Below are positions 6,108 through 16,230 of a stretch of DNA of 64,000 nt, one piece after another. Source of the stretch: Halomonas sp. I5-271120. GTDB taxonomy: Bacteria > Pseudomonadota > Gammaproteobacteria > Pseudomonadales > Halomonadaceae. The DNA is taken from assembly GCF_030553075.1 (NCBI RefSeq), contig NZ_CP130701.1, forward strand, positions 2,108,001 through 2,172,000, read 5' to 3'. Under the pieces are notes generated by a model that was given only the letters and a program-made list of their open reading frames with translations, was not told the DNA's origin and made no database searches. The translations under genes and the position numbers were made by a program. Numbering within the stretch: position 1 is the first letter of the stretch; each line of letters begins with the position of its first letter.

Positions 6108-8897
6108 ATGGCCACCCCGCCCATCGTCCTCGTCGACGGCTCCTCGTACCTGTACCGCGCCTTCCATGCCCTGCCGCCGCTGACCACCTCCAAGGGCCAG
6201 CCGACCGGGGCCGTGAAGGGCGTGCTCAACATGCTCAAGAGCCTGATCAAGCAGTACCCGGACAGCCCGATGGCGGTGGTCTTCGATGCCAAGGGCAAGA
6301 CCTTCCGCGACGAGATGTTCGAGCAGTACAAGGCGCACCGGCCGCCGATGCCGGATGACCTGCGCAGCCAGGTGCAGCCCCTGCACGACTGCGTGAAGGC
6401 GCTGGGTCTGCCGCTATTGTGCATCGAGGGCGTCGAGGCCGATGACGTGATCGGCACCCTGGCGCGCCATGCCACCGAAGCCGGGCGCGACGCGGTGATC
6501 TCCACCGGCGACAAGGACATGGCCCAGCTGGTGAATGCCCACATCACCCTGGTCAACACCATGAAGGGCGAGACCCTCGACGTGGGCGGGGTCAACGAGA
6601 AGTTCGGCCTGCCGCCGGAGCTGATCATCGACTTCCTGGCGTTGATGGGTGACAAGGTCGACAACATTCCCGGTGTGCCGGGGGTGGGAGAGAAGACGGC
6701 GCTTGGTCTTCTGCAGGGCATGCAGGGCGGCCTCGACACCATCTACGGTGATCTGGAGCGCATCAAGACGCTGAGCTTCCGCGGCGCCAAGACGCTCGGT
6801 AAAAAGCTCGACGCGCACCGCGACGAGGCCTACCTCTCGCATAAGCTCGCCACCATCAAGACCGACTGCGAGCTGCCGGTGGGACTTGATGATCTCGACA
6901 TTGCCCACCCGGACCGCGAGGCGCTGACCGAGCTGTACCGGGAGATGGAGTTCAAGGCCTGGCTCTCTGACCTGCTCGAAGGCAAGGACGACGCTGCCGA
7001 AGGCAAATCGGCCACCGCCGGTTCGGGCGCGTCTGACGAAAGCCAAGAGGATGACCAAGACGAAGCCGAGTCCGACACTCCCTCGTCGCAGCGCGTGGAT
7101 CAGGTGATTCTCGAACAGGCCGACTTCGATGCCTGGCTTGAGCGTCTCGAGGCCAGCGAGGCGTTCTGCTTCGATCTCGAGACCACCAGCCTCAACTACA
7201 TGGAGGCCGAGATCGTCGGCGTCGGCCTGGCGCTGGAAGCCGGCGAGGCCGCCTATATCCCGCTGGCGCACGACTACCTCGATGCCCCCGCCCAGCTCGA
7301 TCGCAAGGCGGTGCTCAAGGCGCTGACGCCGCTGCTGGAGGATGCCAGCAAGGCCAAGATCGGCCAGAACCTCAAGTACGACATCTCGGTGCTGGCCAGC
7401 TACCACATCAAGGTGGCCGGGCCGCTGCACGACACCATGCTCGAATCCTACGTGCTCAACTCCACCGCCACCCGCCATGACATGGACTCGCTGGCGCTGA
7501 AATACCTGGGCGAGAAGACGGTGAGCTTCGAAGAGATCGCCGGTAAGGGCGTCAAGCAACTGACCTTCAACCAGATCGCTCTCGAACAGGCCGCCCCCTA
7601 CGCCTGCGAGGACGTCGATATTACCCTGCGTCTGCACCACGAGCTGCGCCCGCGCCTCGAGCAGGAAGGGCGCGTCGCCGAGGTGCTGGACGCCCTCGAA
7701 CGCCCGCTGATTCCGGTGCTCTCGCACATCGAGCGTACCGGCGTGGCCCTGGACGCCGAGCGCCTGCACACCCAGAGTCGCGAGCTTGAGACGCGCATCC
7801 GCGAGCTCGAGGCCCGCGCCCACGAGCTCGCCGGTCGCGAGTTTAACCTGGGCTCGCCCAAGCAGCTTGCCGAGATCCTCTTCGAGGAGCAGAAGCTGCC
7901 GGTCAAGAAGAAGACCCCCAAGGGCGCGCCTTCCACCGCCGAGGCGGTGCTCGAGGAGCTGGCGCTGGACTTCCCGCTGCCCAAGGTGATCATCGAGCAT
8001 CGCGGGCTTTCCAAGCTCAAGTCGACCTACACCGACAAGCTGCCGCTGCTGGTCAACAAGGCCACCGGCCGGGTGCACACCAGCTACCACCAGGCGGTCA
8101 CCGCCACAGGTCGGCTGTCATCGAGCGATCCCAACCTGCAGAACATTCCGATCCGCACCGAGGAAGGGCGCAAGATCCGCCAGGCCTTCATTGCCCGGCC
8201 AGGCTACAAGATCGTCGCCGCCGACTATTCCCAGATCGAGCTGCGCATCATGGCGCACCTCTCCGAGGATGCAGGCCTGCTCGAGGCCTTCGCCGAGGAT
8301 CGTGACATTCACGCCGCTACTGCCGCCGAGGTGTTCGGCGTCGAGCTCGACAAGGTCTCCACCGAGCAGCGGCGCAGCGCCAAGGCGATCAACTTCGGGC
8401 TGATCTACGGCATGAGCGCCTGGGGGCTCGGCAAGCAGCTCAACATCGAGCGCAACCAGGCGCAGACCTACATCGACCGCTACTTCGACCGCTACCCCGG
8501 CGTTGCCCGCTACATGGAGGGCATTCGCGCCCAGGCTGCAGAAGACGGCTTCGTCGAGACCGTGGCTGGCCGCCGGCTCTACCTGCCCGAGATCAAGGCG
8601 CAGAACCAGGGACGCCGCCAGGCCGCCGAGCGCACCGCCATCAACGCGCCCATGCAGGGCACCGCCGCCGACATCATCAAGCGCGCCATGATCGACGTGC
8701 ACGCCTGGCTGATGGAGGGCGAAATGGATGCCTGGATGGTCATGCAGGTGCACGACGAACTGGTCTTCGAGGTGAAAGACGAGCAGGTCGATGACTTCAT
8801 CGATGCCGTGAAGGCGCGCATGCGTGACGCCGCCGACTTGAGGGTGCCGCTAATCGTCGAGGCCGAAAGCGGCATCAACTGGGATGAAGCCCACTGA
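6108..8897 (+). CDS. polA: DNA polymerase I
   Basis: 929-residue repair and Okazaki-fragment-processing polymerase. The start at 6108 (MATPPIVLVDGSSYLYRAF) is chosen because AAGGAA lies nine bases upstream; an earlier in-frame ATG at 6075 lacks one. Domains in order: 5'-3' exonuclease (about 1-290; VEADDVIGTLA, GDKVDNIPGVPGVG), an acidic linker (about 300-330), 3'-5' proofreading exonuclease (about 335-515; FDLETTS with D356 and E358 intact), and polymerase (about 550-929; motif A AADYSQIELR with D706, motif C QVHDELVFEV with H882-D883-E884). All three activities look intact. A hairpin terminator follows. Confidence 0.97.
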   Translation: MATPPIVLVDGSSYLYRAFHALPPLTTSKGQPTGAVKGVLNMLKSLIKQYPDSPMAVVFDAKGKTFRDEMFEQYKAHRPPMPDDLRSQVQPLHDCVKALGLPLLCIEGVEADDVIGTLARHATEAGRDAVISTGDKDMAQLVNAHITLVNTMKGETLDVGGVNEKFGLPPELIIDFLALMGDKVDNIPGVPGVGEKTALGLLQGMQGGLDTIYGDLERIKTLSFRGAKTLGKKLDAHRDEAYLSHKLATIKTDCELPVGLDDLDIAHPDREALTELYREMEFKAWLSDLLEGKDDAAEGKSATAGSGASDESQEDDQDEAESDTPSSQRVDQVILEQADFDAWLERLEASEAFCFDLETTSLNYMEAEIVGVGLALEAGEAAYIPLAHDYLDAPAQLDRKAVLKALTPLLEDASKAKIGQNLKYDISVLASYHIKVAGPLHDTMLESYVLNSTATRHDMDSLALKYLGEKTVSFEEIAGKGVKQLTFNQIALEQAAPYACEDVDITLRLHHELRPRLEQEGRVAEVLDALERPLIPVLSHIERTGVALDAERLHTQSRELETRIRELEARAHELAGREFNLGSPKQLAEILFEEQKLPVKKKTPKGAPSTAEAVLEELALDFPLPKVIIEHRGLSKLKSTYTDKLPLLVNKATGRVHTSYHQAVTATGRLSSSDPNLQNIPIRTEEGRKIRQAFIARPGYKIVAADYSQIELRIMAHLSEDAGLLEAFAEDRDIHAATAAEVFGVELDKVSTEQRRSAKAINFGLIYGMSAWGLGKQLNIERNQAQTYIDRYFDRYPGVARYMEGIRAQAAEDGFVETVAGRRLYLPEIKAQNQGRRQAAERTAINAPMQGTAADIIKRAMIDVHAWLMEGEMDAWMVMQVHDELVFEVKDEQVDDFIDAVKARMRDAADLRVPLIVEAESGINWDEAH

Positions 8898-8924
8898 GTC
8901 GATAGCAAGTATCAGCCCACAAGC

Positions 8925-8950
8925 ATCAGCCCGGCCAAGGCCGGGCTGAT
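8925..8950 (+). terminator. polA terminator hairpin
   Basis: Arms 8925-8936 and 8939-8950 are perfect 12-bp complements with a tight loop, followed by TTT. It lies 27 bp after the polA stop and also faces the convergent YkgJ-type gene. Confidence 0.7.
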
Positions 8951-8996
8951 TTGGGCAAGGGGGAAGCTTTGGCTGGATAAGCTGTTCTTGAATGCG

Positions 8997-9290
8997 CTAC
9001 ATGCTGGCCGCGCGCTCGGCGAGGCATTCATCGGAGGCCACTTCAAATTCCCGGCAAATCAGCGGCCGATTCTCGTAGATTGAGCACATCAGGGTGTCGC
9101 GATCCAGCGCCGAGCACCAGCCATCGTCCAGGCGACGCATCGTCTCCCCGCCCCACTCGTCCACTTCGATGTGGCGTTCCGGCACGCCGGTGTCGGTCAA
9201 GATGACCACCTCCAGCCGGCAGCAGCAGGCCTGACAGTTCGAGCAGGCGACCTCGGAGACCGGCAGATTTTTCGCTTCGATGGGCGTCAT
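8997..9290 (-). CDS. YkgJ-family cysteine-cluster protein
   Basis: 97 residues with a cysteine pattern typical of the YkgJ/CxxCxxCC family: VACSNCQACCCRLE near the N-terminus, then WCSALD, LMCSIYENRPLICREFE and a final DECL. The family is annotated as putative iron or zinc chelating; no biochemical role is established. Cytosolic, no signal peptide. A TATAAT-like hexamer for the minus strand at 9321-9326 may be its -10 box. It converges on polA. Confidence 0.85.
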   Translation of the reverse strand: MTPIEAKNLPVSEVACSNCQACCCRLEVVILTDTGVPERHIEVDEWGGETMRRLDDGWCSALDRDTLMCSIYENRPLICREFEVASDECLAERAASM

Positions 9291-9749
9291 GGAGATCCGA
9301 TGTGGGGGGAATCTTCAGCCATTATACGCTATATTTTCGACTTTTTTATTGCGTGTTCGATGCAGCAAGGGACTAAGGCGTTAACGCCATCTTGCAGGAT
9401 GCCAGTGCAGTAGCAGCTCTCGGCTAGAAGTGACATTCGGGAGCCGCGAAGCGGTGGAAGGGCAGTATGCCACCAGTGTTTTTTTAGGTATTTGCTAGAT
9501 GGAAAAAGCTACGATATTTTTTTATTGGTGTTAACGATGACGTGATCAAGTTATTTCCCCGTATAAATTCAGGTTATCATTTTCGCTCCAGTCAGAAAAT
9601 ATAATGCTGGTTTTTATATAGGTGTTCATGAAGATAACATGTGTTTTTTAATGTTAATTTTTTCTGAAAAGAACTGGCGCCTAACATTTTGTATAGCCGG
9701 AAGATGATTTCCAGGAGTCGGGGAGCTGTGGGCGTGGCTCCGGGACCCT
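9291..9749. other. AT-rich intergenic segment, no gene seen
   Basis: Much less GC-rich than the flanks, with long T and A runs between about 9485 and 9670. The first part (9300-9350) holds a likely minus-strand promoter for the YkgJ-type gene. I see no convincing coding frame, tRNA or transposase remnant. Base composition suggests the left edge of acquired DNA. Confidence 0.5.
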
Positions 9750-10280
9750 TTAATCGGCAATGTCAGGTTTCGCGACGTCAAATGAAGAGAAGGGGATGTC
9801 CATGGCTTCGCTCTTTCCGTCGCCGAATCCGAGATTCTTCGAGTTTTCAGCATCCTCGGAATTTAACTCGTAGATCAGCCTTATAATTTTCGCCTCTTCC
9901 TCTGGTGACAAGCTGATTCCCCGGTCCAAGAAATTTCTCCGGGTCTTGGCAATCACAGCTTCCATCCGCTCGACGTCCAGTGAGGGCTTGACGGATACGG
10001 ACTTTGGTTGTTTTTCAGGCAGCTCTTGGCCAGTAGCCAACCATTCCAGGCTGACGCCCGTCTCGACGGCTAGAATGAGCGCTTTGTCCAGGCCGGGTAG
10101 CGAACCGGTGAGGTATTTTCTGATCAGGCTGTCACTCATCCCGCAGGACTTGGCGATGGAATGAATGGAGCGGTTGCCAATCGCTTGCTTGAGGCGCTTC
10201 GAAAACCCTCTCTCAAGTTCCAATATCATGCCTGAGTGTGAGCCCTCGGGTGCCGATTTTTCTCTAATGTCTTTTTTCAT
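9750..10280 (-). CDS. XRE/CI-like helix-turn-helix regulator
   Basis: 176 residues. Residues about 25-85 form a helix-turn-helix of the phage-CI N-terminal type: FSKRLKQAIGNRSIHSIAK, GMSDSLIRKYLTG, then VSLEWLATGQELPEK, wording common to CI-like repressors in Pseudomonas and Halomonas. The C-terminal half (ERMEAVIAKTRRNFLDRG, SLSPEEEAKIIRLIYEL) is helical and lacks the Ser-Lys protease of classical CI, so RecA-induced self-cleavage is not expected. No phage genes adjoin it. The start is uncertain: ATG 10280 or ATG 10229. It is divergent from the KaiC-like gene, so it could act on the 280-bp region between them. Confidence 0.75.
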   Translation of the reverse strand: MKKDIREKSAPEGSHSGMILELERGFSKRLKQAIGNRSIHSIAKSCGMSDSLIRKYLTGSLPGLDKALILAVETGVSLEWLATGQELPEKQPKSVSVKPSLDVERMEAVIAKTRRNFLDRGISLSPEEEAKIIRLIYELNSEDAENSKNLGFGDGKSEAMDIPFSSFDVAKPDIAD

Positions 10281-10560
10281 ACTGAACGTTCTGCAATGGG
10301 GTAGCCCTTCAAGAGCAGGTTTCTTCAGGATCGCCTAATCATTGGTGGATGACGCCGCGATGTTGAAGGCCTTTCTCTCAGGTGTTATTTTTATCACTAA
10401 AGAGGTGGTTTTTAACTCTATAGTTTCTAGGCTGGTCGAAAGTATAAATCATACCATGAAATGCTAGGGGGCCGTGCGAAAGACCTGTATCAGGGGGCTT
10501 AACTTATGTAGTGCAATTTGATGGTAGCAATTAGAGTGACTTTCAACGCGGGAGAAAGAC

Positions 10561-12012
10561 ATGCCCCCCTTAACTGATGGCCGCATTCGCACTGGCGTTC
10601 GAGGTTTCGATGAAATTCTCCGGGGAGGGGTGATCCCCCAGCGCACCTACCTGATCCGAGGTGGTCCTGGCTCGGGCAAAACCACTCTCGGCCTCCACTT
10701 CCTGATCAATGACTCCCAGTCGGGCAGCCTGTTCGTCAGTCTTGGCGAATCTGAGCAGCAGCTGCGCGAAAACGCGAAGCGCAGTGGTTTGTCGATGGAC
10801 GGCGTGGATGTGCTGGACCTTTCGCCAGGACAAGAGGAGTCCGGCGACACGTATACCCTGCTGGAGAGCTGGGACGTGGAAGGCAATAGTATCCACGACA
10901 GCATTCTAAGCTACGTTCAGGAGCACCAGCCAAAACGCATTCTGATCGACTCTCTAAGTCAGATGCGCTATCTCTCGGCCGATACTTTCCTGTTTCGCAA
11001 GCAGGTTATGTCACTGTTGCGAAAGCTTACGGCTGAGGGGGCGACGATAATGTTCACCTCGGAACAAGAGCCAGGCGACAATGATGACACTCTTGCTTTT
11101 CTTAGCGACGGTGTCATTACTCTGGAACAAACCGAAAGCGAGCGTCAGTGCCGGGTTACCAAGTTGCGTGGCTCTTCGTTTGCCAATGGCGCGCACTATT
11201 TTAGCCTGGGTGACGGGGGCATAACGCTGTATCCGCGCCTGGAGCCCAGCCATCATGGCCGGCAGGTAGAACATACTCCTCTTGGATCTGGGCTGCCGGA
11301 ATTTGATGCCCTCACCCACGGCGGGATTGAGCGGGGAACAGTAACTCTGTTGTCAGGGCCTACCGGGGTGGGCAAGACCACTCTCGGTGCCCAGTTGATG
11401 AGTGAAGCCGCCAAGCGCCACGAGCGCTCGGTGATCTACTCCTTTGACGAAGGCGCTTCGACATTTTTTGCTCGATGCCGGCAAGTTGGTCTGCCTGTGC
11501 AAGAAATGATCGCCGCTGGCCACCTGAACTTTGAAACAGTCGAACCACTGCATTACAACCCGGACGAATTTGCCGCCCGTGCACGTGTCGAGATTGAAGA
11601 GTTCGGCACGACCATGGTGATGATCGACAGCCTTTCCGGCTATCAACAGTCGGTGCGGGGTGACGAACTGCAGCAGCGTGTCCATGCCCTATGTCGCTAC
11701 CTCGTCAACATGGGGGTGACCGTACTTCTGATCAACGAGGTCTTTGCGATTACCGGCCAGCAGGCTCGGGTGACGGAGTACGGACTCAGCTATCTCGCAG
11801 ACAATATCATCATGCTCCGTTACATCGAGCTTGATAGCGAACTACGCAAATCGATTGGTGTATTGAAGAAACGCGCTGGCGGTTTCGAAAGAACTCTGCG
11901 CGAATTCGAAATTGCCCCTGAAGGACTGAGAGTCGGCCAGCCGTTTCATGGGCTGCGGGGCATTCTGGGCGGCGTGCCGGAAGTGATGACCAACACCCAG
12001 GATGCCACGTGA
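10561..12012 (+). CDS. KaiC-like tandem RecA-fold ATPase
   Basis: 483 residues with two KaiC/RadA-type domains. CI-like domain: TGVRGFDEILRGG, Walker A GGPGSGKTT (G34-T42), then a glutamate site reading G62-E63 where cyanobacterial KaiC has Glu-Glu. CII-like domain: SGLPEFDALTHGG, Walker A SGPTGVGKTT (K272), D296-E297 at the matching site. The phosphorylation segment reads VTEYGLSYLAD: T405 and S410 align with KaiC T426 and S431, while T432 is Tyr (Y411). It is somewhat shorter than the 519 residues of cyanobacterial KaiC, and no kaiA or kaiB is present. GGAGA precedes the start. It overlaps the downstream GGDEF-EAL gene by four bases. A signalling ATPase is likely; clock function is not implied. 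Confidence 0.9.
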   Translation: MPPLTDGRIRTGVRGFDEILRGGVIPQRTYLIRGGPGSGKTTLGLHFLINDSQSGSLFVSLGESEQQLRENAKRSGLSMDGVDVLDLSPGQEESGDTYTLLESWDVEGNSIHDSILSYVQEHQPKRILIDSLSQMRYLSADTFLFRKQVMSLLRKLTAEGATIMFTSEQEPGDNDDTLAFLSDGVITLEQTESERQCRVTKLRGSSFANGAHYFSLGDGGITLYPRLEPSHHGRQVEHTPLGSGLPEFDALTHGGIERGTVTLLSGPTGVGKTTLGAQLMSEAAKRHERSVIYSFDEGASTFFARCRQVGLPVQEMIAAGHLNFETVEPLHYNPDEFAARARVEIEEFGTTMVMIDSLSGYQQSVRGDELQQRVHALCRYLVNMGVTVLLINEVFAITGQQARVTEYGLSYLADNIIMLRYIELDSELRKSIGVLKKRAGGFERTLREFEIAPEGLRVGQPFHGLRGILGGVPEVMTNTQDAT

Positions 12013-14339
12013 CTGCACCTAATAGCTCTCATCAAGAGTCCCCGCGAATCGCCGTAGCCCTGGCAAATCCGTCAAATGGAGAATTGCTCGAACGGCTGCT
12101 GGGCCAGGCATTCCATCTGAAACACGGCTTCTTCGGAGGCCATGAATCTCTTGCTCAAGAGGTAGATCTAGTGGTGATTGATGTCGCATGCTTGCGGCAA
12201 CATTACAAGCTGATCCGTGACCTTCGCCGTCGTGCCAATCCTATGGTGCTGCCGGTATTGCTGGTGGTCGAGAGCCGGGGAGCCCCCCACCCTCAAGTTG
12301 CCGACGAACTGGGCAAGAGTGTCGATGACATTTTGCGTATTCCTACTAGCCAAGTGGAGTTGCAAGCCCGAATCAACAACCTGCTGCGCCTGAGGACTCT
12401 GGCGAGAGAACAGGACGACGCTAGACGACAATTAGTCGGTGTGGTCAGCGCCCTGCGGACCCTGAGTGCCTGCGACAGTATCGTGGTGCGCTCAGAATCC
12501 GAAAGTGAGCTAATCAGGTCCCTATGCCAAACCATTGTTGATGAGGATGGTTACAACCTGGCGTGGATTGGTTTCAATGGCGAGCAGAGCGATTCTGCAT
12601 TTGAAATCTGTGCCTGGGCCGGCCCTTCTCGAGCTTTCGTCCCAGACTTAAGGCAGAACCTGAGCAAGCCATCACCATGCGCTGACACTATCTCTTGGTG
12701 CATTCGCACCAACACAACTCATGTTGTCAATGATATTGCCGATATGCTCCCCTTTTCCCCCCTGAGCGAACGCGCAATAACGCACCAGCTTGCTGCAGCC
12801 ATCATGCTGCCGTTGAAGACTGAATCTGGCCCGTCGGGTTGCCTCACCATCTACTCCAATCGAACGGACCACTTTGACCACAAAGAATGCCAGTTGCTGG
12901 AGCGTCTCGCCGCCAATCTCGTGTTCGGATTGGATTCATTGCGCACTCATAGTGTCCGCGAACAGCAGGCTGCCGAAATCCACTATCTTGCCTATACCGA
13001 TGCGTTAACCGGACTCCCCAACCGTCGCCATCTGATCCATTATCTGGATGACATTTTATCGACTCCTGAAACAGGAGCGACCGAATACGCCATTCTGTTC
13101 ATCGATCTTGATGGCTTCAAGCCAATCAATGACGCCTTGGGTCACGAGGTGGGCGATGAGGTCCTGCGACAACTTGCCCAGCGCTTACAAGCTTCGGTGC
13201 GCGATTCCGACCTGGTGGTCCGCCAAGGTGGTGACGAGTTCCTTGTGGTAATTAGCGGTGCGGTACGCAATGGCCCCCAACAGGATTTCGTGAAGATTGT
13301 CGATATCGCTCATCGTCTAGCCAACAGGATTATCGCCCACTTGGGCGAACCGCTGACGGTGGGTGGCTACACTCATCATCTGAACGCTAGCGTGGGCATC
13401 ACCCTGATTCCGGAGCATGGCCGTGATCCCACCCTTCTGATCGAGAATGCTGACAAGGCAATGTATGAAGCGAAGCGCCAGGGAGGTGGGCAAAGCTATT
13501 TGTTTTCAAAGGATATCGCGGACAGTCATCAGCAACGCTTCTCTTTGGAAACAAGGCTGCGCCAGGCAATGGAGCAGCAGCAATTCGAGCTCTATTACCA
13601 GCCGATATTCGAGCTCAGCTCCTGCCGAATTGTTGCGGCCGAAGCACTGATCCGCTGGCCCCAGGACGATGGTGAGGTCCTGTCGCCAGGCACGTTCATG
13701 CCACTGGTAGAAAAAATAGGGTTGATCAACCCCATCGGCGACTGGGTACTGGAAACGGCTGCCCGCCAGCTGCGCGCTTGGCATAATCAGGGGTTAGAAC
13801 TGAGCATGGCGGTCAATCTCAGCATCAATCAGCTCTACCCGAACGGAGATGCCGAACACTTCGCCGGCTTGGTTAAACCTTATGTCGACCCATCCTGGAT
13901 ACACTTGGAGGTCACAGAGAATGCCCTGATGGAAGATCCGGCAAAGACCGAAGCATTGCTAAAAGCGCTGAACGACCAAGGGTTTCAGCTTGCCATTGAC
14001 GACTTTGGTACCGGCTATTCTTCACTGAGTCGGTTACAGCACCTCTCTCTCCAGTCCCTGAAGATTGATCGCAGTTTCGTCAACGAGCTGGATCGGCCGG
14101 ATAGCAAGGGCGAAGCCTTGGTCGCCATCATTCACCAGATGGCGAGTAGCCTTAATCTTCACACCATCGCTGAGGGCATCGAAACTGAACACCAACGTCA
14201 GCTGTTGCTCGACATGTCCACGGGAAAGGCTTGGGGGCAGGGGTACTGGTTCAGTCCTCCCATTCCAGCGCACGAATTCGAGCGATTGGCAAAGGCCAGG
14301 GCTCGATTGTCGTCCAGGGATGAGATGGTCCCCTTTTGA
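12009..14339 (+). CDS. REC-like/GAF/GGDEF/EAL cyclic-di-GMP protein
   Basis: 776 residues, starting at a GTG that overlaps the KaiC-like stop (GTGA). Domains: a degenerate receiver (about 10-125) keeping a possible phospho-acceptor D58 (LVVIDVACL) but lacking the usual N-terminal acidic pair and with RIP in place of the Lys-Pro motif; a GAF-like domain (about 150-310); GGDEF (about 330-495) with an intact signature G407-F411 and an I-site RxxD (R398-D401); and EAL (about 515-765) with EAL at 545-547, DDFGTGYSSL (D664-D665) and TIAEGIETEHQ. Both diguanylate cyclase and phosphodiesterase motifs are intact. Cytosolic. Coupling to the KaiC-like ATPase suggests that protein controls it. Confidence 0.95.
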   Translation: MTAPNSSHQESPRIAVALANPSNGELLERLLGQAFHLKHGFFGGHESLAQEVDLVVIDVACLRQHYKLIRDLRRRANPMVLPVLLVVESRGAPHPQVADELGKSVDDILRIPTSQVELQARINNLLRLRTLAREQDDARRQLVGVVSALRTLSACDSIVVRSESESELIRSLCQTIVDEDGYNLAWIGFNGEQSDSAFEICAWAGPSRAFVPDLRQNLSKPSPCADTISWCIRTNTTHVVNDIADMLPFSPLSERAITHQLAAAIMLPLKTESGPSGCLTIYSNRTDHFDHKECQLLERLAANLVFGLDSLRTHSVREQQAAEIHYLAYTDALTGLPNRRHLIHYLDDILSTPETGATEYAILFIDLDGFKPINDALGHEVGDEVLRQLAQRLQASVRDSDLVVRQGGDEFLVVISGAVRNGPQQDFVKIVDIAHRLANRIIAHLGEPLTVGGYTHHLNASVGITLIPEHGRDPTLLIENADKAMYEAKRQGGGQSYLFSKDIADSHQQRFSLETRLRQAMEQQQFELYYQPIFELSSCRIVAAEALIRWPQDDGEVLSPGTFMPLVEKIGLINPIGDWVLETAARQLRAWHNQGLELSMAVNLSINQLYPNGDAEHFAGLVKPYVDPSWIHLEVTENALMEDPAKTEALLKALNDQGFQLAIDDFGTGYSSLSRLQHLSLQSLKIDRSFVNELDRPDSKGEALVAIIHQMASSLNLHTIAEGIETEHQRQLLLDMSTGKAWGQGYWFSPPIPAHEFERLAKARARLSSRDEMVPF

Positions 14340-14814
14340 TATTCGGCTGACCGCCTGATCAATGGCTATTCACTGCCTTGGTTATTGTGCAATTTATATC
14401 CGCGTTGCCATGCCCAGAAAGTTTTAATACTTCGGTAAGGTTTTCGTTTAATGCAGCGTGTCATCCGTACCCCCAATCTGCTGGTTTTGGGGGCGGATGT
14501 ATATCTTGACAGGATGGCACCAATCATTGTGCATGCATAACGTGGATGAAGGAGCATGCAGCATTTTCCAAGACGATATTTCCGGGCCTAAACAAGCTCG
14601 TTGTCATATGCTCCAACTCTAATGCTGTATCTGAACTGTGCCTAATCACGTGGGCGGAGAAACAGAACTTTCCTTTTTCCTCTTTAGACTGGTAGATAGA
14701 GCTAGTGACGATACCTAGGCCGACGTCGAGCCCCGGCTGGACGGCTAGGCCACTGTGGGTGATAACGGGGCGAGGGATATCAATCAACGACGAGGATCAT
14801 GAAAGGGGGCAGTG
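14340..14814. other. Intergenic segment without a supported gene
   Basis: About 475 bp of mixed composition. A minus-strand frame of 87 codons (14524-14787) has no recognisable domain and no clear ribosome site, so I do not call it. The end nearest the dehalogenase carries the purine-rich AAAGGGGG ribosome site. Probably the right edge of the lower-GC segment. Confidence 0.4.
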
Positions 14815-15519
14815 ATGGAAGCAGGACAAGATACTGAGGTGCTGGCCTTCGATGTCTTCGGCACGGTGGTCGACTGGTATGGCTCCATCGCCCGCGAGGT
14901 CGATGCGCTGGGGCTGGGTGTCGATGGCGGCGAGTTTGCGCTGGCCTGGCGGGCAGGCTATAAGCCGGCGATGCAGCGGGTGCAGTCCGGCGAGCTTGGT
15001 TGGACGCGTCTCGATGACCTGCATCGTGGCATTCTCGATGAGCTGCTTGAGCGCTTCGCCATTACCTCACTTTCCGAAGCCGACAAGCGCCACCTCAACC
15101 GGGTATGGCACCGGCTCGACCCCTGGCCCGATGCGGTGGAAGGGCTTACGCGCCTAAAACGCCGCTTCACGCTCTGTACGCTCTCCAACGGCAACCTGGG
15201 TCTGCTCACCAACATGGCCAAGCGTGCCGGGCTTCCCTGGGACTGCATCTTATCTGCCGAGGTGTTCCGCCAGTACAAGCCGCATCCCGCTACCTATCTT
15301 GGCGTTGGCGAGGTGTTCGATGTGCCGCCTGCGGCGGTGATGATGGTGGCAGCCCATCAAGAGGATCTCGACAGTGCACGTCGCCACGGGCTGCGGGCGG
15401 CCTACGTGGAGCGCCCACATGAGTTCGGGGTGGCAACCTCCAAGGATGCACCTGGTGCGCTCGATAACGACTTGCATACCACGTCGTTGATCGACCTGGC
15501 GGAGCGGCTCGGCTGCTGA
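14815..15519 (+). CDS. Type II haloacid dehalogenase-like hydrolase
   Basis: 234 residues of the HAD superfamily. Motif I AFDVFGTVVDWYG gives nucleophile D13; motif II is TLSNGN; motif III has FRQYKPHPATYLG; motif IV region is MMVAAHQEDLDSARRHGL. The pattern (FDVFGTVVDW, SNGN, KPHP, VAAH..DL) is that of L-2-haloacid dehalogenases, which hydrolyse 2-haloalkanoates to hydroxyacids. The real substrate may be a different phosphate or halo-compound. GTG 14812 and ATG 14815 are adjacent; the ATG is better spaced from AAAGGGGG. Monocistronic. Confidence 0.88.
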   Translation: MEAGQDTEVLAFDVFGTVVDWYGSIAREVDALGLGVDGGEFALAWRAGYKPAMQRVQSGELGWTRLDDLHRGILDELLERFAITSLSEADKRHLNRVWHRLDPWPDAVEGLTRLKRRFTLCTLSNGNLGLLTNMAKRAGLPWDCILSAEVFRQYKPHPATYLGVGEVFDVPPAAVMMVAAHQEDLDSARRHGLRAAYVERPHEFGVATSKDAPGALDNDLHTTSLIDLAERLGC

Positions 15520-15903
15520 ACCTGCGAGATAGTCGACTAATTTATTAGCAATGGCAGGATTATCGAGAAAAAACTTGTCGTCTTTTCGGCTATAGCTACT
15601 ATGGGAACAGTGCTATAAATCAGCTGTTTTCTTTACCGCCAGTTCATTTTGGTGGTCTGGCATTGAAAATGAAGGATGCGAGGTCTGTCCTGCGCTCTAA
15701 GCAGGCGAGATCGTCGTGATCATGGTGTCGTGTGATTGGGGGTAATCACAGTAGTTATGATGGTTACAGCCTGCCCTAGTGGTCTTTTTAGGGGGTAGGG
15801 TATGCTGCAGTAGGGATTTTTAATGCTTTCACTGCTCGCCCCGGAGAATTCACGCGCGTGGTGCTGAATCCATGTAGATAAGGTCAGATAAGACGAGGGA
15901 CGC
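15520..15903. other. Leader region of the small Cys-motif gene
   Basis: 384 bp with no coding frame I can support. It contains the dyad TGTGATT-N6-AATCACA (15731-15750) and a possible -10 TATGCT at 15801-15806, both upstream of the 108-residue gene. Confidence 0.4.
15731..15750. promoter_or_regulatory. Perfect 7-bp-arm dyad, candidate operator
   Basis: TGTGATT (15731-15737) and AATCACA (15744-15750) are exact inverted repeats with a 6-bp spacer. The half-site resembles part of a CRP site, but the spacing does not fit CRP (TGTGA-N6-TCACA). The cognate regulator is unknown. Confidence 0.4.
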
Positions 15904-16230
15904 ATGGAGCGTGTTTTGCTAGGGGCGGGGCCTCATGAAAGTTATATCATCATGTGCTCATGTGGTGCGATCGAGGTCACACGGGAGCCGCGTGAGTGGC
16001 GTCGGTTCACGCCTTACCACCATTCGGTGCGCTGTTATTGTGAAGAGTGCGGCGAAATCAATAGCATGGAGATTCTTGAGGAGAATTTCGATGGATCAGG
16101 TGCCCAGGCAGTGCTTCAGGCTATGGATGCTGCATCCGGCTCGACAATGCCCCCTGCTGCGCTCGTCACTCGCGACAATGTGATCGTGGCATTCCCTGGT
16201 GCTGGTCGCGATGCGGATATGCCCAAGTGA
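15904..16230 (+). CDS. Small protein with CxC...CxCxxC motif, possibly GFA/Mss4-like
   Basis: 108 residues I do not recognise as a named family. It shows MCSCGAIEV followed about 25 residues later by VRCYCEECGE, i.e. CxC...CxCxxC. This resembles the zinc-binding face of GFA/Mss4-like proteins (CxCG...CxCxxC), but the rest of that fold is missing, so zinc binding is inference. The C-terminal part (VTRDNVIVAFPGAG) has no cysteines. No signal peptide. A 24-bp-stem terminator follows, and a dyad lies about 155 bp upstream. Confidence 0.6.
   Translation: MERVLLGAGPHESYIIMCSCGAIEVTREPREWRRFTPYHHSVRCYCEECGEINSMEILEENFDGSGAQAVLQAMDAASGSTMPPAALVTRDNVIVAFPGAGRDADMPK

Follow-up and report, generated by a model that had tools for sequence, protein, structure and literature searches.

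Relatives of the clock protein KaiC are widespread outside cyanobacteria, and to our knowledge the targets of most of them are not known. This report addresses a kaiC-like gene and its downstream neighbor, a gene for a GGDEF-EAL protein of cyclic di-guanosine monophosphate (c-di-GMP) turnover, found in a 64,000-nucleotide stretch of Halomonas sp. I5-271120 (contig NZ_CP130701.1, positions 2,108,001 to 2,172,000), hereafter the window. The closest descriptions come from the 2011 Ramlibacter tataouinensis genome paper (PMC3164672), whose section on kaiC describes three contexts, among them kaiC close to GGDEF/EAL genes and kaiC beside histidine kinases whose N-terminal domain is receiver/KaiB/SasA-like; that section describes no pseudo-receiver head on the GGDEF/EAL protein and no clade-wide linkage. 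Excerpts of other papers report KaiC-REC fusions in archaea (PMC5847659), place the pseudo-receivers found in CikA and KaiA within the clock of cyanobacteria (PMC12632262), and present BcsE as an Escherichia coli c-di-GMP sensor whose RecA/KaiC-like domain is predicted (PMC7439463). An initial annotation of the window, made from its letters alone, had called the pairing little studied, which is fair, yet KaiC beside GGDEF/EAL genes has been in print since 2011 (PMC3164672, section on kaiC). The literature consulted, mostly open access, yielded no experimental study of KaiC with a GGDEF-EAL partner, and neither the linkage to a pseudo-receiver across the clade nor the three-gene variant reported here was found described in it. 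A 2023 paper reportedly deals with KaiC-like proteins of Pseudomonas, stress resistance and biofilm formation.

The conserved feature of this locus is the linkage of the two genes, not their overlap. Sequence comparison gives good support for a functional tie of a KaiC-type ATPase to c-di-GMP turnover: the adjacency of the two genes is conserved, they co-occur almost exclusively, and their trees are mostly congruent. Direct physical wiring of KaiC to its partner is plausible, by analogy as well. With middling confidence, we propose a two-gene module in which KaiC ring state, relayed through the pseudo-receiver, would control the c-di-GMP enzyme. The features of the pair are as follows.

10561..12012, + strand, kaiC-like gene: ATG open reading frame (ORF) of 483 amino acids with two KaiC (RecA-type) ATPase domains
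10660..10683, + strand, CI Walker A motif GGPGSGKT, residues 34-41 (column alignment)
10738..10755, + strand, CI catalytic segment SLGESE (column alignment and alignment to KaiC)
10939..10959, + strand, CI Walker B motif ILIDSLS (column alignment)
11356..11379, + strand, CII Walker A motif GPTGVGKT, residues 266-273 (column alignment)
11440..11457, + strand, CII catalytic segment SFDEGA (column alignment)
11620..11637, + strand, CII Walker B motif MIDSLS (column alignment)
11788..11793, + strand, Ser410-Tyr411, at the phosphorylation-site position of KaiC (alignment to KaiC and columns)
12009..12012, + strand, GTGA overlap of the kaiC stop and the partner GTG start (ORF list)
12009..14339, + strand, pseudo-receiver-GAF-GGDEF-EAL gene: GTG ORF of 776 amino acids
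12045..12395, + strand, predicted pseudo-receiver (REC*), residues 13-129 (hhalign, Asp58 conservation, AlphaFold2 model)
12495..12932, + strand, GAF domain, residues 163-308 (Pfam)
12990..13487, + strand, GGDEF domain, residues 328-493 (Pfam)
13200..13241, + strand, I-site RDSD and GGDEF signature, residues 398-411 (motif table)
13554..14261, + strand, EAL domain, residues 516-751 (Pfam and motif table)

The KaiC profile PF06745 matches the 483-residue product twice (Pfam, 246 bits), and the closest solved relative is the KaiC 8zn5_B, aligned over residues 8-474. Two ATPase domains, both P-loops and both Walker B motifs place the protein in the double-domain KaiC superfamily. It scores below the cut-offs of the circadian equivalogs (TIGR02655, 172 bits vs 546; NF006799, 249 vs 408), and it carries Ser-Tyr instead of the Ser-Thr pair of clock KaiC, aligned to what we take to be Ser431-Thr432 of the cyanobacterial protein. 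The segment SLGESE keeps only the second of the two CI glutamates, presumably catalytic in KaiC, with Gly at the first. Across the KaiC rows compared, the first CI glutamate is replaced, CII holds DE or EE, and the phosphorylation site is [ST]Y in all but L049 and L050 (Asn-Tyr); the full-length rows of the clade all retain both P-loops and both Walker B motifs. The C-terminal tail of the window KaiC is about 19 residues shorter than in its best solved relative. A near-identical 18-base direct repeat lies at the two kaiC P-loops (10674-10691 and 11370-11387), and in genome G048 (L059) the two domains of kaiC have collapsed in frame into a product of 263 residues, with the junction about at that repeat. 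KaiA (PF07688) and KaiB (PF07689) give no match at E <= 0.001 across the whole genome; in the control, Synechococcus elongatus, both searches matched, and the KaiB search matched five more controls.

The partner is ordered as degenerate receiver, coiled coil, GAF, GGDEF and EAL, with Pfam recognizing GAF_2, GGDEF and EAL and nothing over residues 1-150. On profile and model evidence, residues 13-129 are a degenerate receiver. A profile of 71 partner N-terminal domains matches ordinary receivers at E 2e-9 (hhalign), and Asp58, at the phospho-acceptor position, is invariant in 42 of 42 pseudo-receiver sequences. The domain lacks the acidic pair that follows strand 1 and the Lys that precedes the proline of strand 5, which we take to be essential in receivers, and the loss of these phosphotransfer residues probably has a functional consequence. 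The AlphaFold2 model (mean predicted local distance difference test, 84; predicted template modeling score, 0.49, at which inter-domain placement is unreliable) has strands at 13-17, 36-39, 54-58, 83-87 and 107-110 with helices between, the order of a receiver, a long helix 115-161 running into GAF and a second helix 291-329 running into GGDEF. The motifs RDSD-x5-GGDEF, EALIRW, DDFGTGYSS, KIDRSF and AEGIET are all present, giving the full bifunctional cyclase/phosphodiesterase set (GGDEF, I-site, EAL, DDFG, catalytic K and E), and from these motifs the window partner looks able to both make and destroy c-di-GMP. The initial annotation had read from the sequence a four-base GTGA overlap, two intact catalytic motif sets with the I-site, a degenerate receiver with a GAF-like domain, and the absence of kaiA and kaiB. 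All of this holds: ORFs 10561-12012 and 12009-14339 share 12009-12012, the motifs are in place, profile comparison, the model and Pfam recover both domains, and neither Kai profile finds a match.

The same pair was sought in other genomes, as the annotation had proposed. In a survey of 201 genomes of the host family, KaiC of the window kind (E <= 1e-40) is found in 20 genomes, at 27 sites. A pseudo-receiver-headed gene lies downstream at 26 of the 27, at three of them after a small receiver-like gene; the one site without a partner match, in G183, holds a KaiC remnant with three stops. Seven more sites, all with the partner, come from a wider survey that took in 293 genomes from the order and 369 from the class. 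The KaiC clade as a whole thus has the partner at 33 of 34 sites (at L054 the contig stops behind the pseudo-receiver), of which 28 are placed in the KaiC tree and the rest assigned by identity; L062 and L063, repeats of L041 and L059, were dropped before counting. The window's own genome has 36 GGDEF matches and two KaiC of the window kind, each followed by a GGDEF-EAL gene. With 36 GGDEF matches against two of two paired KaiC, and the recurrence at 33 of 34 sites, the pairing is more than chance.

The reverse search, with the pseudo-receiver alone against the 201 family genomes, gives 43 matches at E <= 1e-4. The 23 best (E <= 6.4e-7) all lie just downstream of KaiC of the window kind, in 22 cases as its immediate neighbor and in one (G177) with a small receiver-like gene in between. 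Two of the other 20 (E 3.7e-6 to 8e-5) are downstream of KaiC (G168, G121) and 18 are elsewhere, 16 of these in open frames of 226-285 residues that are probably ordinary response regulators. In the protein database, 43 proteins carry the pseudo-receiver; all have GGDEF and EAL (precomputed Pfam) and are 742-780 residues long, and none is a KaiC-partner fusion, the candidates being limited to 0.55-1.75 times the query length. The KaiC protein search covered the best 120 of 3396 matches, and the phylum search contributed 40 new loci from the matches listed, the weakest left out. Listed hosts of the closest pairs include Halomonas, Chromohalobacter, Pseudidiomarina, Aquisalimonas, Natronospira, Saccharospirillum, Halofilum and Marinobacter, among others. 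Many of these genera are, we assume, salt-loving, and a salt-related role for the pair is worth testing.

The pairs fall into three subgroups, of which A is closest to the window and C most distant. Start codons were picked by rule (-4 if present, else the first at or after -12), and the four-base overlap is then found at 13 of 13 sites in subgroup A, at 2 of 11 in subgroup B (five others start at -8 or -11 and four have an uncertain start) and at 1 of 9 in subgroup C. Non-conservation of the overlap was among the refuting conditions set in the initial annotation, and it is borne out only in part: subgroup A always has the overlap, subgroups B and C hold to it loosely, and the linkage persists throughout. 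R-x-x-D, five residues, GGDEF and then EAL occur in all 22 A/B partners of the motif table (which omits L041 and L054), and DDFG in 21 of the 22; only the second copy of the own genome, cut off ahead of this motif, is without it. In subgroup C all nine partners keep EAL and DDFG intact, and their GGDEF is degenerate. At six of the nine subgroup C sites a gene for a receiver-like protein of 123-135 residues stands between kaiC and the EAL gene, overlapping each neighbor or within 46 bases of it. This small protein retains the Asp and the Lys-Pro, and the five tested score under the Pfam receiver cut-off (16.7-23.9 bits vs 30.2). The three-gene variant (L056, L057, L058, L071, L085, L086) runs kaiC, small receiver-like gene, and a gene for pseudo-receiver, degenerate GGDEF and intact EAL. 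A KaiB hidden in the gap of about 400 bases in subgroup C was considered and rejected, since the gap holds the small receiver-like gene.

A quick tree was built from 99 KaiC proteins (without L041, L061, L062, L063, L039, the second L037 site, L115, and L059, which is under 380 residues). In it, the 28 rows whose partner is a pseudo-receiver-EAL protein cluster together with support 98, and their sister is a group of 43. The KaiC tree and the partner tree (without L041, L051, L061, L062, L063 and L054, the last on a contig that stops short of EAL) both split A/B from C, save for the long-branched KaiC row L038, which groups with A/B (support 89) while its partner groups with C. In the six genomes with two subgroups (G000, G059, G048, G092, G168, G455), each KaiC adjoins a partner of its own subgroup. 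Distances of KaiC and of each partner domain have rank correlations of 0.89-0.91 over 25 gene pairs, uncorrected for the species tree.

At all 44 loci of the sister clade (L115 and the 43 above), a frame on the same strand at the kaiC end matches another degenerate receiver; the head profile was built from 31 of them, the other 13 not being used in it, and four of the 44 frames, mechanically called, start well inside kaiC. The proteins tested by Pfam are six hybrid histidine kinases and four shorter HWE kinases of 346-386 residues (L104, L109, L118, L130), the latter with the receiver-like head next to kaiC. Hybrid and HWE kinases on the same head mean that the output changes behind a constant head. 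The shared plan of the two clades is KaiC with a pseudo-receiver-headed client of exchangeable output. At L096, a distant KaiC is followed after 69 bases by an ordinary receiver-GGDEF-EAL gene, so the association of KaiC with GGDEF-EAL proteins probably arose more than once. Five Duganella loci (L064-L068) have a GGDEF gene directly upstream of kaiC and a downstream neighbor with the receiver-like head of the kinase clade.

Direct control of c-di-GMP by a KaiC ring appears to be the best reading of these observations. The product of the kaiC-like gene is most likely a hexameric ring driven by ATP, an ATPase and possibly an autokinase at Ser410. The pseudo-receiver heading the GGDEF-EAL protein would dock onto this ring, whose nucleotide or phosphorylation state would be relayed via the coiled coil and GAF, setting the balance of c-di-GMP synthesis and breakdown; control would thus run from ring to enzyme. 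Docking is plausible because pseudo-receiver-headed neighbors occur in both sister clades, archaea have KaiC-REC fusions, and KaiA and CikA have pseudo-receivers. The input would be energy or nucleotide state, not time of day, with the ATP/ADP state suggested because this KaiC is without KaiA and KaiB. With c-di-GMP as a product that can be measured, the strictly paired enzyme would offer a direct biochemical read-out of KaiC action. If the ring does set c-di-GMP, the energy state of the cell would be linked to the motile/sessile switch, and the recurrence of pseudo-receivers beside KaiC genes would be explained.

A broader idea is put forward more tentatively: KaiC rings without KaiA and KaiB may be energy-sensing hubs that grip their clients via an N-terminal pseudo-receiver, with interchangeable outputs. 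The output would be a hybrid or HWE histidine kinase in the sister clade, a c-di-GMP cyclase/phosphodiesterase here, and in subgroup C a three-part relay of KaiC, small receiver and pseudo-receiver phosphodiesterase. If true, c-di-GMP signaling would take its input from the state of an ATPase ring, neither from two-component phosphorylation nor from a small-molecule sensor.

Several observations weigh against direct control. All partner domains track KaiC equally, in distances without species-tree control, and the pseudo-receiver is not singled out. A single adaptor family for both pseudo-receiver heads was considered and rejected: by hhalign the heads match each other at E 5e-4 and ordinary receivers at 2e-9 and 4e-11 (28 C-terminal receivers of the same kinases and six others), and one inherited docking domain is unsupported because the two head types are not mutual nearest relatives by profile. 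For the reverse search, the cut at E 6.4e-7 was chosen post hoc, where the list breaks. An excerpt of 2026 cyanobacterial work finds c-di-GMP without direct action on Kai proteins; added c-di-GMP did not consistently alter cyanobacterial Kai reactions, which disfavors a general direct effect of c-di-GMP on KaiC (PMC13001216). Lastly, seven of the 27 family sites look damaged or cut, which suggests that the module is dispensable, with assembly error possible for any single site. The partner is interrupted in the second copy of the own genome and in G059:C6; KaiC is interrupted in G189, G168 (second site) and G183, shows a CI/CII collapse in G048:C9, and lacks its first half in G178, where the partner is also short (691 residues). 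The second pair of the own genome (L051, G000:C1, about 243-246 kb) has an in-frame stop inside the partner's EAL. In the conspecific genome G059, whose contig C6 carries a KaiC 100% identical to that of the window, the second copy is whole (L061) and the ortholog of the window partner is split in GAF (L041).

Control may instead run in reverse, with the GGDEF-EAL protein or I-site-bound c-di-GMP as input and the KaiC ring as effector on other targets. GAF and the I-site are possible inputs of the partner's own, and BcsE, in an excerpt of PMC7439463, joins a RecA/KaiC-like domain to a c-di-GMP-binding REC*-GGDEF* tandem. However, full catalytic motifs in 21 of 22 A/B partners, and EAL motifs intact in nine of nine subgroup C partners despite their degenerate GGDEF, argue for an enzyme output and not only a sensor, and BcsE has no detectable sequence relation; we regard this direction as improbable. 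Co-expression only, with both genes answering the same stress and the proteins making no contact, is likewise doubtful. Short overlaps are common in bacterial operons and adjacent genes often share a pathway without protein contact, but no pseudo-receiver match at the post hoc cut lies away from KaiC in the 201 genomes, the six two-subgroup genomes keep each KaiC with its own kind of partner, and the linkage outlasts the overlap in subgroup C. An hourglass or circadian timer gating c-di-GMP without KaiA and KaiB is unlikely, and strongly so, given the missing KaiA and KaiB matches, Ser-Tyr in place of Ser-Thr, the short tail, a host that is presumably not photosynthetic, and a patchy, often damaged locus. 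It draws on KaiC ancestry and on an hourglass raised as debatable for related KaiC with a histidine kinase partner (PMC3164672, section on kaiC). Of the ATP-hydrolyzing timer or state switch wired to c-di-GMP that the initial annotation had suggested, the functional link survives on adjacency, co-occurrence and trees, and the timer finds no support, given the missing KaiA and KaiB matches, Tyr in place of Thr432 and the shortened tail.

Upstream of the pair lies a divergent gene.

9750..10280, - strand, CI-repressor-like helix-turn-helix gene, divergent from kaiC (Pfam)

Relatives of this gene stand upstream of kaiC in L059 (75%) and L082 (53%), with no match at other sites outside the species; it seems to be an optional companion and a possible local regulator. 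A promoter and terminator scan found no more than in shuffled sequence, and Rfam matched nothing at 8500-16000. By tblastn and ORFs, G034 and G070 have polA, a YkgJ-like gene and a gene for a HAD hydrolase in the same order as the window, with a gap between the YkgJ-like and HAD genes of 2.2 kb (G034) and 1.0 kb (G070) vs 5.5 kb in the window (9291-14811), filled by other open frames. In G048 the KaiC pairs are on contigs other than that of the HAD gene. This arrangement suggests that the pair is cargo in a variable spot.

Set against known systems, the window KaiC shares with the cyanobacterial KaiABC clock the double domain, both P-loops and both Walker B motifs, and differs in its Ser-Tyr site, its shortened C-terminus and a genome without KaiA or KaiB match. 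The nearest solved structures of the partner's GGDEF-EAL half are MorA and PA0575 of Pseudomonas aeruginosa (4rnh, 5m3c), and we know of no pseudo-receiver head or KaiC partner in either. BcsE of E. coli likewise brings a RecA/KaiC-like domain, a degenerate receiver and a GGDEF fold into c-di-GMP signaling; unlike the pair, it is one polypeptide, probably unable to bind ATP and with an inactive GGDEF (excerpt of PMC7439463). BcsE as a fused descendant of the pair was considered and rejected in view of no sequence signal, leaving an architectural parallel only. The contexts set out in the kaiC section of PMC3164672 are closer. The 'first' and 'third' resemble the window in a kaiC adjoining a GGDEF/EAL gene, but the 'first' carries kaiB and the 'third' is described as diverse. 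The 'second', KaiC with a receiver-headed histidine kinase, has a two-domain KaiC, no kaiB gene and a tight downstream receiver-like-headed neighbor, all as in the window. The sister clade fits this context and shares the [ST]Y phosphorylation site of the window KaiC, and is probably the same, matched by description rather than by sequence. The window pair differs from it in a KaiC outside the kinase-linked clade and in a partner whose output is GGDEF-EAL, not a histidine kinase.

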